A DNA stretch of 64,000 bases, taken from NCBI GenBank assembly GCA_902167325.1, contig LR632930.1, positions 310,001-374,000 of the forward strand, in the 5' to 3' direction. Below are positions 38,150 through 45,254 of this stretch, piece after piece. This DNA is from Chitinophaga pinensis. Lineage in GTDB: Bacteria; Bacteroidota; Bacteroidia; Chitinophagales; Chitinophagaceae. The notes under the pieces were generated by a model that was not told where the DNA came from, ran no database searches, and was given only the letters and a program-made list of their open reading frames with translations. Every line of letters begins with the position of its first letter. Position 1 is the stretch's first letter. The translations under genes were made by a program, and so were the position numbers.

Positions 38150-40336
38150 TTAGTTTTCGTCTTTCATCACCTGGCGGTAAGCCTTGATGAAGATGGCGCC
38201 GAGGTTCTTATGCGGCGGCACATAGTCATCGAACAGGGCTTTGTTGGCAGTGTCTGCAGCAAACTTGCGGCTGAGGCCTGCCCACATCTGTACCCAGTCT
38301 ACATTCTTACCTGCACGGATCACATCTTCCAGACTGCGGATGATAGGCTCGTTTACCCAGCGGGTACCCACCTGTTTGGAGGAAATGATGTGTGCTTCAG
38401 GCGCTTTTTCCAACACGGTAGCCAGGTTGTGGTAACCACCGCAGGACCCCAGGACCACAATGCGTGCGGTGCTCTGCAGGTTATCCAGCGTGGTATTCAC
38501 GTGGTAGCTGTGCCCGCGGTGAATGAATATAGTCGGGTGAATATCCTTCTCATCGAGGTACTGACCCAGTTTCTCGATGGCAGTTTTATCTTCCGGCTCT
38601 TTCAGCGGGTTATTGGCGAAAATGGTAGTAGGCTTGCCCTTGGCGGAAGTAATGGTTGTCCAGTAGGTATTCTTCGTCACATTCCATTCCCCTTTCGGGA
38701 AATTGCCCATGAAGCTGGCGAAAGAACTGATGCCGTCTTCATCCCCATAGAAAAATACCTGCTGGTAAATACGCCCGCTATCGCTGGGCAGCGTGGCAAA
38801 CTCCACGTAATTGATGGGAGGCAGCTGCAGCTTGGAGCTCATGTCAGACGCCCACGAGCTGTCGTTCCCATGCCCTTCTTCCATGAAAATGCTATTGAGG
38901 AGGGAATAAATGGTAACGCCCCGCTTGTCGTTTTTAGACTGAACGAAGCTGAGGTTCTTCCGAACTTCTTCCCGGAGGAACTCCAGGAGCTTGGGATCGC
39001 GGATGGAGCCAAACGAGTTGGCTACGTCTACGGCATCTTCCAGATCTTCCGTTTTCTCCAGACTGCGCACAAACTTCACCATGAGGTAATTGGCGTTCTC
39101 CCCTTCCATCGACTTCAGGAAGTTATCGAGGGTATTGAAGCCTGCCGCCATGGCAATGAATTTCTTGAACCGGTCGAAGCTCACGAGCAACAACAGGCTA
39201 TCGCCCCGGGGAGGCTTCATACGGATCATCATCTGGTCGTACAGTCCCTGCTTGGCGGCATTGGTGTAGCTGGAGGTATATAATTCTTCCTGACCGTTGA
39301 TGATCAGGTAATACAGTTCTTCAGGGGTAAAGTCTTTCACGATACGGAAGCGGATGGCATGGCTCTCGTCGTGCAGGTCATTGATTTCACGGATGTACCG
39401 GAGTGATTTGGCCCGCATGTTTTCATGCATGGATTTGAGGCCCATGATGTTGGCGCCTTCTGCCTTTTTCTTCTGGAGTACGATGGAAGTGTGCACCATG
39501 AGGCGGAAATAAGCATCGTCGTTCTCTACTGCCCTTTCCAGTTCAGGGATGGTAGCAGAGCCATCCAGCAGCTGATCGATAAAAGGCATGAGTTTGGTGG
39601 ACTGGCTGCTTTTGCCAATGGCCACGATCTGCTGCACCAGGGGGTCCTGATTGCGGCGGATGGCGGAAGCGGTGGGCGTGTATGAAGTGGCGTAGGTAAG
39701 CACCTGATTGGGGTACTTTTTGGCTACTGCAGCCACAATGGAGTCGGTCACCGGGTATTCCAGGTAAGGGCCGAGCTTGGGCATGATTTCTTCCAGGTTC
39801 TTGAAAGCGAACTTGGAGAACATTTCTGCCCTCGACTCTTTATAGCCGGGGTTATCCTGGAATGCGTCTATCACCCTTTCTCCCGCCTCAAAGCTGAGTG
39901 TTCTGGCGATGGGGTAAATGCTTTTCCCTTTGATATCGGCCTTCATCATCTGATGATATGCCTGCAGCATGGCCGGCGCTTCTTCAGCGTCGATCCTGTT
40001 ATATGCCCTTTTTACGTTGTAATCGCGGAGGGTTTGATGAAGCCCGGAGAGGTACTTCACTTTCAGCCGGTGGTCAAGGGAGGTATCCTTCTCAATTTCC
40101 AGCTGCATATCATCCACCAGTTTGGTGAGCGCGCTGGTTACCTGGAGGTTCATGTTTTCGTCGTCACCGACTTTCACGTAGTTATCCTGCTTACCGTCCA
40201 GCTTATCGGCATTGAGCTGCTCCTTGTCGATATTGTCATGGAAGCCCTGCCTGTTAATGGGGATCTGTACTTTCTGACCATAACTCCAACCACTATAGAT
40301 AATGCCTAAAGATATGATTAGTAATGCTTTTTTCAT
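38150..40336 (-). CDS. Large exported protein with a C-terminal caspase-like (clan CD) signature
   Basis: The 728-aa product has a signal peptide (MKKALLIISLGIIYSGWSYGQ). Residues about 60-520 are mostly alpha-helical with no family I recognise. The C-terminal 130 residues show a hydrophobic strand leading to HRGHSYH (His606, His609, His612) and, about 23 residues on, ARIVVLGSCGGYHNLA with Cys632, then HIISSKQVGTRWVNEPII. A strand-His-Gly followed by a strand-Ser/Ala-Cys-Gly is the hallmark of caspase, gingipain and CHAT peptidases. I infer a putative cysteine peptidase or a degenerate relative; His609 and Cys632 would be the dyad. It has its own terminator and diverges from the PhoB-like regulator. 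Confidence 0.6.
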   Translation of the reverse strand: MKKALLIISLGIIYSGWSYGQKVQIPINRQGFHDNIDKEQLNADKLDGKQDNYVKVGDDENMNLQVTSALTKLVDDMQLEIEKDTSLDHRLKVKYLSGLHQTLRDYNVKRAYNRIDAEEAPAMLQAYHQMMKADIKGKSIYPIARTLSFEAGERVIDAFQDNPGYKESRAEMFSKFAFKNLEEIMPKLGPYLEYPVTDSIVAAVAKKYPNQVLTYATSYTPTASAIRRNQDPLVQQIVAIGKSSQSTKLMPFIDQLLDGSATIPELERAVENDDAYFRLMVHTSIVLQKKKAEGANIMGLKSMHENMRAKSLRYIREINDLHDESHAIRFRIVKDFTPEELYYLIINGQEELYTSSYTNAAKQGLYDQMMIRMKPPRGDSLLLLVSFDRFKKFIAMAAGFNTLDNFLKSMEGENANYLMVKFVRSLEKTEDLEDAVDVANSFGSIRDPKLLEFLREEVRKNLSFVQSKNDKRGVTIYSLLNSIFMEEGHGNDSSWASDMSSKLQLPPINYVEFATLPSDSGRIYQQVFFYGDEDGISSFASFMGNFPKGEWNVTKNTYWTTITSAKGKPTTIFANNPLKEPEDKTAIEKLGQYLDEKDIHPTIFIHRGHSYHVNTTLDNLQSTARIVVLGSCGGYHNLATVLEKAPEAHIISSKQVGTRWVNEPIIRSLEDVIRAGKNVDWVQMWAGLSRKFAADTANKALFDDYVPPHKNLGAIFIKAYRQVMKDEN

Positions 40337-40364
40337 ATATGTGTGTTACGCCTATGCTATACTG

Positions 40365-40372
40365 CAAATTTA
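40365..40372 (-). promoter_or_regulatory. Candidate -7 element for the 38150-40336 gene
   Basis: TAAATTTG on the minus strand matches TAnnTTTG, 29 bp before the ATG. An ATTG at 40394-40397 is a weak -33 candidate. Confidence 0.3.
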
Positions 40373-40607
40373 CTACCAATTCTACCGAATAAGCAATGCC
40401 ATCGCAGGCATATTGAACAATTTATATGTGTTTTTCGTTAAATGTCCATCCGCATAGGTACCACACCGGCATGTTTGCGCCTTTTTGAGAGATGCAGGAA
40501 TTATGAAGGGAAAAATGAGCCTGCCGGAATGTCTGGTACACGGTACCCCGTAAAGGGTCAAAATGCGTACCTTGCAGGCGTATAGGCGATTTGAGGGACG
40601 GAGTGAA

Positions 40608-40663
40608 TTAACAATTACATAATGTTATCTTTTCATGAAACGGGAATGAGCTGATTAATTTTG
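40608..40663 (+). promoter_or_regulatory. PhoB-like gene promoter with half-preserved Pho-type box
   Basis: TAATTTTG (40656-40663) is a good -7 element. In the exact register used by the four Pho-type promoters of this window (44 bp of 11-bp units, then 4 bp, then -7), the two distal units read TTAACAATTAC (40608-40618) and ATAATGTTATC (40619-40629). The two proximal units (TTTTCATGAAA, CGGGAATGAGC) are degenerate. Weak autoregulation by the PhoB-like product is inferred. Confidence 0.4.
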
Positions 40664-40686
40664 TGCCGTCTTTAAACACCCAAATT

Positions 40687-41376
40687 ATGTTGATGGAACC
40701 AGCAGTAGCAGTAGGTAAAATCCTGGTAGTAGATGACGAAGCGGATATCCTCGAGATCATCAGCTACAACCTCAAGAGCGCGGGGTATGAGACAGTGACG
40801 GCAAAAGATGGCCTTGAGGCCATCCAGAAGGCTAAAATCTTCCGCCCCGACCTGATCATGCTGGATATCATGATGCCCAACAAAAACGGTATAGATACCT
40901 GCCGTGAGTTGCGCCGTCTCCCTGAGTTCAAGGAAACCATGGTACTGTTCCTCACCGCTCTCAACGATGAGAAGAGTGAAATAGAAGGCCTGAATATGGG
41001 CGCAGATGATTACATCGCCAAACCCATTAAACCCCGGCTCCTCGTTTCCCGCATCAACGCCCTCTTCCGCAGGCTCAACAAAACCGAAGAGCAGCAACTC
41101 CACCTCGGCGATCTTATTATCGACCGGGAAAAATTCACCGTTACCTACAAAGGCACCGAGATCATCCTTGCAAAAAAAGAGTTCGAACTGCTGCAGCTGC
41201 TGGCCTCCAAGCCCGGCCGCGTGTTCCTCCGCAATGAGATCCTCAACCAGGTTTGGGGTACCGAAGTAATCGTGGGCGACCGTACTATTGACGTGCATAT
41301 CCGCAAGATCCGTCAGAAGCTGGGGGTAGACCTGATAACTACCGTAAAAGGCGTAGGCTACAAATTCGAACTGTAA
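40687..41376 (+). CDS. PhoB-like OmpR-family response regulator
   Basis: The 229-aa product begins at an ATG at 40687 (a GTG at 40663 overlaps the -7 element and is unlikely). Receiver domain: ILVVDDEADILEI acidic pocket, phospho-acceptor Asp in LIMLDIMMPNKNG, Lys in DDYIAKPIK. The C-terminal winged helix has KKEFELLQLLASKPGRVFLRNEIL and GDRTIDVHIRKIRQKLG, typical of PhoB/PhoP. It is 65 bp upstream of a PhoR-like kinase. The phosphate-related genes and Pho-type promoters downstream support the role of phosphate-starvation regulator. DNA-binding specificity is inferred from those repeats. Confidence 0.85.
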   Translation: MLMEPAVAVGKILVVDDEADILEIISYNLKSAGYETVTAKDGLEAIQKAKIFRPDLIMLDIMMPNKNGIDTCRELRRLPEFKETMVLFLTALNDEKSEIEGLNMGADDYIAKPIKPRLLVSRINALFRRLNKTEEQQLHLGDLIIDREKFTVTYKGTEIILAKKEFELLQLLASKPGRVFLRNEILNQVWGTEVIVGDRTIDVHIRKIRQKLGVDLITTVKGVGYKFEL

Positions 41377-43916: not shown

Positions 43917-45254
43917 TCAGAAGCGGTATTGCAATCGTGCAGTAAACACGTTGTCGGCAATATCATCCTCGAACCCTTCCAGCGAAGTGCCTTCGTTCCA
44001 GACACGGTCGTACCAGAAGGTGGCTTTCATATTTTCATTGAAGTAAAGCACATACCCGAAACCGAAGGTATCGAAACGGATATCTGCAGGCGTGAGGTAT
44101 TTGGCTGAGGCATCACCTATCTGGCGGCCTTTCACCTGCCGGTTAGGATCGTACCAGTCATATTTCAACACCAGCTGGTGCCTGGGGTTACCCAGGTGCT
44201 GCAGGAAGGAAAAATATGCGCCGTCGAACGGACGGATGTATAAAGGTGCGAAAGCCCCGTTCTTATCCACAGGAATAGTGCCGGGTGTTTCCGTATCGGT
44301 TTGTGTGGAGGACTGGTGCCCGCGGATGTACTCGGCACGGAACTGGGTACTGCCGCGCTTCTCCCCGTTAGGGATTACCAGCTGGGCATCTCCCCCATAA
44401 TACTGACGTGGGGCAATGGCGCCTACGTTTGTATCAGTAGAATCAACGGTAAAGTCTGCCTTCCCGCCTTCCATCTTATAGATCTTCTTAGTAAACTGCT
44501 CCATTCCTCCATAGAGGATGCTGCCACCGAAAGAGAGCAGCCAGCCGCTGGCGTTGATGGCCTTGGGCTTCATGGCCACTCGGGCAATGAGGTCTTTATG
44601 GCTGTCGAAGTCCGACGGGCCGGAGAGGCCCTGGCCGTTGAACAAGCCTACATCCACTTTCAGGTAGTGCAGCGGGTGCGACTTCGACCGTGGTTCAAAA
44701 GTGAGCATTCCGCCCATATCGCGCTCGCTGCGCATGAGGATCTGGCTCATACGGCCACGCTCCGGTGCTTCACGGTCGCCGGAAGAGAGGTTTACTTCAT
44801 ACCCGAATGGCCGGGCAAACATCCCCATGGTAAGGGCCATTACATCCCATTTTCCGTCAAATACACGGCCCCAGAAGTCACGGATATTCACCCCGCGCTC
44901 GGTTCCGTCGAACTGGAATACGAACTGCACGGTGGGCAGGTTGCGTTTATTGAAGTGGGCATAATCGAACCGCACGCGGCCGCGGCGAAGCATAAAGCGG
45001 TTATCGGTCTGTTTATTGAAGTCTCCGCCGGCATAGCTTTCTATCCCTTTATGGGAAGCGTACTGGAACTGGGGTTGCATATACCCGCTGATACGGAGGT
45101 GATCATACCGCTTGTAGATGGAGATCATCCCCTTACCCAGACTGGTAGTGGTATCGATCATATCCATCAGGAACTGGGCTTTTACGGAAAAAGCCGCCAA
45201 ACTGAGAAATAATGCCAGAAACCCTGTCCGAACCGTTGTACGCAATACCTTCAT
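43917..45254 (-). CDS. OprO/OprP-type (phosphate-selective family) porin
   Basis: The 445-aa product (ATG at 45254, MKVLRTTVRTGFLALF) has a signal peptide, a short coiled segment (DMIDTTTSLGKGMISIYKRYDHLRISGYMQPQFQY), and a beta-barrel with RFMLRRGRVRFDYAHFN, FVFQFDGTERGVNIRDFW and MGMFARPFGYEVNLSSGDREAPERGRMSQ. These are characteristic of the phosphate-selective porin O/P family. It ends in VFTARLQYRF with a terminal Phe. Many relatives are not phosphate-specific, but the surrounding Pho genes make an anion or phosphate role credible. Confidence 0.85.
   Translation of the reverse strand: MKVLRTTVRTGFLALFLSLAAFSVKAQFLMDMIDTTTSLGKGMISIYKRYDHLRISGYMQPQFQYASHKGIESYAGGDFNKQTDNRFMLRRGRVRFDYAHFNKRNLPTVQFVFQFDGTERGVNIRDFWGRVFDGKWDVMALTMGMFARPFGYEVNLSSGDREAPERGRMSQILMRSERDMGGMLTFEPRSKSHPLHYLKVDVGLFNGQGLSGPSDFDSHKDLIARVAMKPKAINASGWLLSFGGSILYGGMEQFTKKIYKMEGGKADFTVDSTDTNVGAIAPRQYYGGDAQLVIPNGEKRGSTQFRAEYIRGHQSSTQTDTETPGTIPVDKNGAFAPLYIRPFDGAYFSFLQHLGNPRHQLVLKYDWYDPNRQVKGRQIGDASAKYLTPADIRFDTFGFGYVLYFNENMKATFWYDRVWNEGTSLEGFEDDIADNVFTARLQYRF

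Follow-up and report, generated by a model that had tools for sequence, protein, structure and literature searches.

A candidate family of exported proteins with a clan CD-like C-terminal domain in Chitinophaga pinensis and its relatives

An exported protein of 728 residues is encoded in the genome of Chitinophaga pinensis, and the question raised by its gene is whether the His and Cys motifs near the C-terminal end belong to a caspase-like peptidase and, if so, to which family. The gene lies within a window of 64,000 nucleotides (assembly GCA_902167325.1, contig LR632930.1, positions 310,001 to 374,000 of the forward strand), the features of which are collected in Table 1. It is present as a single copy in a genome of 6.28 Mb, and the nearest named relative of its product, from Chitinophaga deserti, is 98% identical. 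The best explanation, to which a probability of about 0.58 is given, is that the protein represents a new family of cysteine peptidases, exported and probably located in the periplasm, in which a clan CD-like C-terminal domain is carried on a large helical scaffold.

Table 1. Features of the gene and its surroundings (positions in the window)
Feature	Position	Strand	Basis
Gene of the 728-aa exported protein with caspase-like C-terminal domain	38150..40336	-	ORF with ATG start; homologues
Signal peptide, residues 1-20	40277..40336	-	Sequence; N-terminal hydrophobicity in 88% of 60 homologues
Helical region, residues 27-502	38831..40258	-	AlphaFold model
C-terminal alpha/beta domain, residues 505-728, clan-CD-like	38153..38824	-	Model (pLDDT 91.3, pTM 0.90); structural alignments
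Acidic pair D532-x-D534 where strand 1 ends, either a candidate S1 element (basic P1) or structural	38735..38743	-	Conservation; S1 role inferred from PMC4357240
HRGHSYH, residues 606-612, after strand 3, with His609 as predicted catalytic His	38501..38521	-	Conservation
GSCGG, residues 630-634, after strand 4, with Cys632 as predicted nucleophile	38435..38449	-	Conservation; sole Cys of the protein
Promoter-like block ATTGGTaGTAAATTTGC, including TAnnTTTG, a short way upstream of the gene	40364..40380	-	Footprint in about 40 loci
OmpR/PhoB-type response regulator, divergent	40663..41376	+	PF00072 and PF00486
Histidine kinase with two membrane helices	41442..42560	+	HisKA/HATPase

The general layout of the protein is the one originally predicted, namely a signal peptide, some 500 helical residues and a C-terminal part in which a His motif and a Cys motif stand about 23 residues apart. 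A signal peptide can be read from the N-terminal sequence, MKKALLIISLGIIYSGWSYG/Q, and a strongly hydrophobic stretch is found within the first 35 residues in 88% of 60 aligned homologues. In the whole-protein AlphaFold model, built with 60 natural homologues (mean pLDDT 89.9), the region in front of the C-terminal domain is entirely helical. The second motif, VVLGSCGG, occupies residues 627-634, and His609 and Cys632 are exactly 23 residues apart.

Sequence searches of Pfam, NCBIfam, PADLOC and PDB with the 728-residue protein returned chance-level matches only. No match was obtained to the CHAT family (PF12770), which is also absent from the 25 weak families met most often among 60 members, nor in Pfam to C11 (PF03415), nor in Pfam or NCBIfam to the C14 caspases and metacaspases or the C25 gingipains. 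No literature was found on a caspase-like protein of such a type in Chitinophaga or Chitinophagaceae; an unrelated C. pinensis metacaspase, in a fusion with amidase and lipase domains, has been described (PMC3501461). The same genome also encodes a separate CHAT-domain protein (G000:C1:4549065-4549892, open frame of 1794 aa).

The fold was predicted with confidence as an alpha/beta/alpha domain, both in the whole-protein model and when residues 505-728 were modelled alone. In the whole model, the domain runs through a strand (523-529), a helix (533-543), a strand region (551-575), a helix (582-596), a strand (603-607) leading into HRGH, a helix (610-618), a strand (626-629) leading into GSCGG, a helix (634-644), a strand (649-653) and a helix (659-674). 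Five core strands and their helices are present in order in the model of the C-terminal domain, the clan CD sheet being the six-stranded one of caspases and haemoglobinases. In all members of clan CD, the His stands at the C-terminal end of strand 3 and the Cys at that of strand 4 (PMC4357240), and in both models His609 follows strand 3 and Cys632 follows strand 4, in keeping with the clan CD resemblance proposed when the motifs were first noticed. The clan also conserves a Gly adjacent to the catalytic His (PMC4357240). Around His609, the sequence reads G608-H609-S610, with Gly before and Ser after (Ser in 199 of 199 domains), so that the usual His-Gly order of the clan is absent.

Structural alignments of the C-terminal domain are headed by a SAVED-CHAT protease (Z 9.1, rmsd 3.8, 167 residues), followed by iotapain, a C11 protease of Bacteroides (Z 8.7, 184 residues). 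When the whole model was aligned, the matches near the top included DdvA, an anti-sigma factor that bears a CHAT domain (Z 8.9), as well as iotapain (8.2), Csx29 (8.0), separase (7.9) and the Craspase TPR-CHAT protein (7.6), with GTPases interspersed among them. Scores of this size are no proof of kinship, the alignment tool itself cautioning that Z 7-8 is common without it. C13, C14, C25, C50 and C80 do not appear in the structural list of the C-terminal domain, an absence that excludes nothing. Could the domain then belong to another Rossmann-like group, Ras-like GTPases, HAD-like proteins or similar, and share with caspases only a doubly wound sheet? Small GTPases dominate the structural lists, reaching Z 8.2 against the C-terminal domain, and they lead the Foldseek list against PDB, where both models gave weak matches, mostly to GTPases. 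The beta hairpin ahead of helix 2 also fits the Ras-like order, and the DxDG found where strand 1 ends is reminiscent of the HAD motif. However, the GTPase alignments are shorter (125-151 residues versus 167-184), and neither an NKxD motif nor a P-loop was found. Indeed, GxxxxGK[ST] was sought after strand 1, and the GTPase reading is disfavoured because that position reads GDEDG, of which D532, D534 and G535 are invariant in the family alignment. HAD proteins carry a squiggle and a flap after their DxDG motif, whereas here helix 1 follows DxDG directly. Invariant residues moreover stand where clan CD has His and Cys. Membership of such a Rossmann-like group is for these reasons considered very improbable.

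Profile comparison adds a hint in the direction of CHAT. With hhalign, CHAT ranked first, above C11 and four control families, with an E-value of 0.019 and a probability of 2.4%, which is not significant. The alignment is in register, with the CHAT His motif opposite IHRGH and the CHAT Cys motif opposite LGSCG. The comparison with C11, whose profile was made from four sequences only, gave a non-significant E of 0.55. The domain is thus caspase-like and is assigned to none of CHAT, C11, C14 and C25; that it is not filed in CHAT follows from the non-significant profile comparison. The proposed caspase resemblance, in sum, is partly supported, namely by the predicted fold, the His/Cys placement and the top alignments, whereas the missing His-Gly, the close scores of GTPases and the non-significant profiles stand against it.

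Each of the candidate relatives shares some features with the protein and departs from it in others. In CHAT proteins, the His also lies on strand 3 (HxxTHG versus HRGHS) and the Cys on strand 4 (VVLSAC versus VVLGSCGG). However, His is followed by Gly rather than Ser, the His-Cys spacing is about 45 residues in the CHAT proteins compared instead of 23, and CHAT proteins are cytoplasmic, whereas the present protein is exported by its sequence. The plan of a helical region placed before a C-terminal caspase-like domain is common to Csx29 (PMC10028731). In this cytoplasmic TPR-CHAT protein, control of the caspase-like domain by the helical repeat region is established (PMC10028731). The C11 family (clostripain, PmC11 and Bacteroides iotapain) offers a secreted clan CD protease of Bacteroidota, and a basic P1 preference would match, but sequence or profile similarity is lacking and the domain plan is different. 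Separase (C50) likewise joins a large helical N-terminal part to a C-terminal protease but is eukaryotic, cytoplasmic or nuclear, and without sequence similarity. Gingipains and PorU (C25) are exported clan CD enzymes of Bacteroidota, whereas in the 728-residue protein no type IX secretion tail is seen after the domain and the N-terminal region is helical instead.

Conservation was counted over 199 distinct homologous C-terminal domains. D532, R607, S610, G630, C632 and G633 are invariant (199/199), and H606 (198/199), S631 and D534 (197/199 each) and H609 (195/199) are nearly so. The protein contains no cysteine other than Cys632, which is also the sole conserved cysteine of the family. Judged from these sequences, the HRGHSYH/GSCGG motif is not due to chance because Cys632 stands alone and R607, S610, G630, C632 and G633 never vary in the 199 domains. 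The pattern around Cys632 would suit a catalytic nucleophile. The invariance originally expected of both residues among homologues was thus found in full for Cys632 and not quite for His609, which is replaced only in four long paralogues from two taxonomic families, each of them retaining Cys632.

These exceptions bear on the possibility that the fold is caspase-like while the protein is not a peptidase but a binding or signalling module, with Cys, His and Asp forming a structural or a metal/redox site. Five near-invariant residues (two Asp, two His and one Cys) lie where strands 1, 3 and 4 reach their C-terminal ends, the clan-typical His-Gly is absent, and the four long paralogues without His609 keep not only Cys632 but also H606 and D532, for which reason Cys632 may serve another role. 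However, the His/Cys pair is kept in every ordinary-length member sampled, and the loss of His is confined to one of two tandem copies, which resembles a pseudoenzyme partner of an active enzyme. Indeed, in several families, the caspase-like gene adjoins a longer relative, about 930-1,100 aa in length, with a duplicated helical part, and where His609 is lost, the loss sits in this longer tandem copy. A non-catalytic module is held to be unlikely, although it is a more serious contender than a Rossmann-like protein of another group. The tandem pair could possibly combine an active enzyme with a pseudoenzyme partner. The replacement is H609L in L149, L182 and L186 and H609Y in L150, most of the motif being kept, and these long tandem paralogues are candidate pseudoenzymes in which His609 was independently replaced.

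For the preferred reading as an exported cysteine peptidase, we infer a periplasmic location, a peptidase activity, a basic P1 specificity, a role for the scaffold and a regulation along the following lines. The signal peptide would export the 728-residue protein. The helical region might then dock a protein partner or sense a condition of the envelope and so position the catalytic domain, in which His609 would activate Cys632 for the cleavage of one or a few proteins. In clan CD, S1 specificity is set by helix 1 or loop 1, loop 4 and loop 5 (PMC4357240). Because loop 1 bears the invariant acidic pair D532/D534, which flanks the predicted S1 pocket, a preference for basic P1 residues is suggested, and cleavage would probably occur after Lys or Arg. 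Finally, the gene is probably under the control of the PhoB/PhoR-like two-component system next to it, or else that system probably responds to the gene product. The original idea of an exported caspase-like protein outside the recognised families holds at the level of predicted structure and conserved residues, the enzyme, its site of action and its targets being putative.

Homologues were detected in 116 of 119 sampled genomes of Chitinophagaceae, the taxonomic family of the host and a group of soil bacteria (100 of 102 genera). A profile search also recovered them in several other families of the same order, and a class-level scan in one additional family of the class. A profile search of weak sensitivity over 395 genomes of the phylum found no homologue beyond Chitinophagaceae, whereas the order and class scans did find other families. 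A phage origin of the gene was considered and rejected, a scan of viral contigs having returned no relative of the protein. In view of this distribution and of the empty viral scan, the gene looks like a core gene that is vertically inherited in the group rather than a mobile defence gene. To our knowledge, most accounts of bacterial caspase-like proteins concern defence, virulence or lineage-specific genes of scattered occurrence. If the present reading is true, an exported caspase-like protein that is nearly universal and usually single-copy throughout a bacterial family would point to a house-keeping role in the cell envelope; a nameless gene would gain a testable active site and clan CD a probable new family. 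In one genome, Chitinophaga sp. E66 (L085, CP079103.1), the gene and its neighbours are split into many short ORFs, probably owing to an error-rich assembly rather than to gene decay.

The response regulator, transcribed like the histidine kinase in the direction away from the caspase-like gene, adjoins that gene in 36 of 38 Chitinophaga loci and in 30 of 42 other loci, and the linked two-component system offers a direct genetic handle on the gene. As read from its sequence, the histidine kinase has about 4 residues between its two membrane helices and no periplasmic sensor domain; because almost no periplasmic loop is left, its sensing must, on this reading, take place inside the membrane or rely on a partner. 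The other families of the order usually possess one clear kinase orthologue per genome. In five of these genomes (G511, G549, G567, G568 and G582), belonging to four genera and three families other than that of the host, this orthologue immediately precedes the caspase-like genes and is oriented as they are, and in about 27 of the 32 genomes outside Chitinophagaceae that possess it, it is found elsewhere. Gene order across the families thus provides evidence for a putative ancestral functional link between the kinase and the caspase-like genes, often lost.

The linkage can also be read as mere chromosomal neighbourhood, the protein then being a periplasmic peptidase with a general house-keeping function. 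Downstream of the caspase-like gene, an ABC exporter and genes of the ATP synthase are likewise kept as neighbours in many loci, and the linkage to the kinase is lost in most genomes outside the taxonomic family. Yet in the five genomes no more than a few kilobases separate the kinase orthologue from the caspase-like genes, with a gene orientation different from that in the host, and the number of such linked cases expected by chance is, by a rough estimate, about 0.1. A plain house-keeping peptidase with an incidental neighbour is considered possible and is the most plausible of the alternatives, though still doubtful. A wider proposal is an order-wide periplasmic signalling protease system, in which a caspase-like enzyme on a helical sensor, accompanied in some lineages by a His-less longer partner, would act as sensor or switch for the sensorless kinase; it is speculative and regarded as improbable, somewhat more so than the non-catalytic module.

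Two further observations concern the surroundings of the gene. An ORF of 445 aa without Pfam family (43917-45254, minus strand) is a neighbour in 33 Chitinophaga loci and in one other locus. The ATTGGTaGTAAATTTGC block is strongly conserved in about 40 loci, TAnnTTTG being the Bacteroidota promoter element, which stands here beside a conserved TTGGT.
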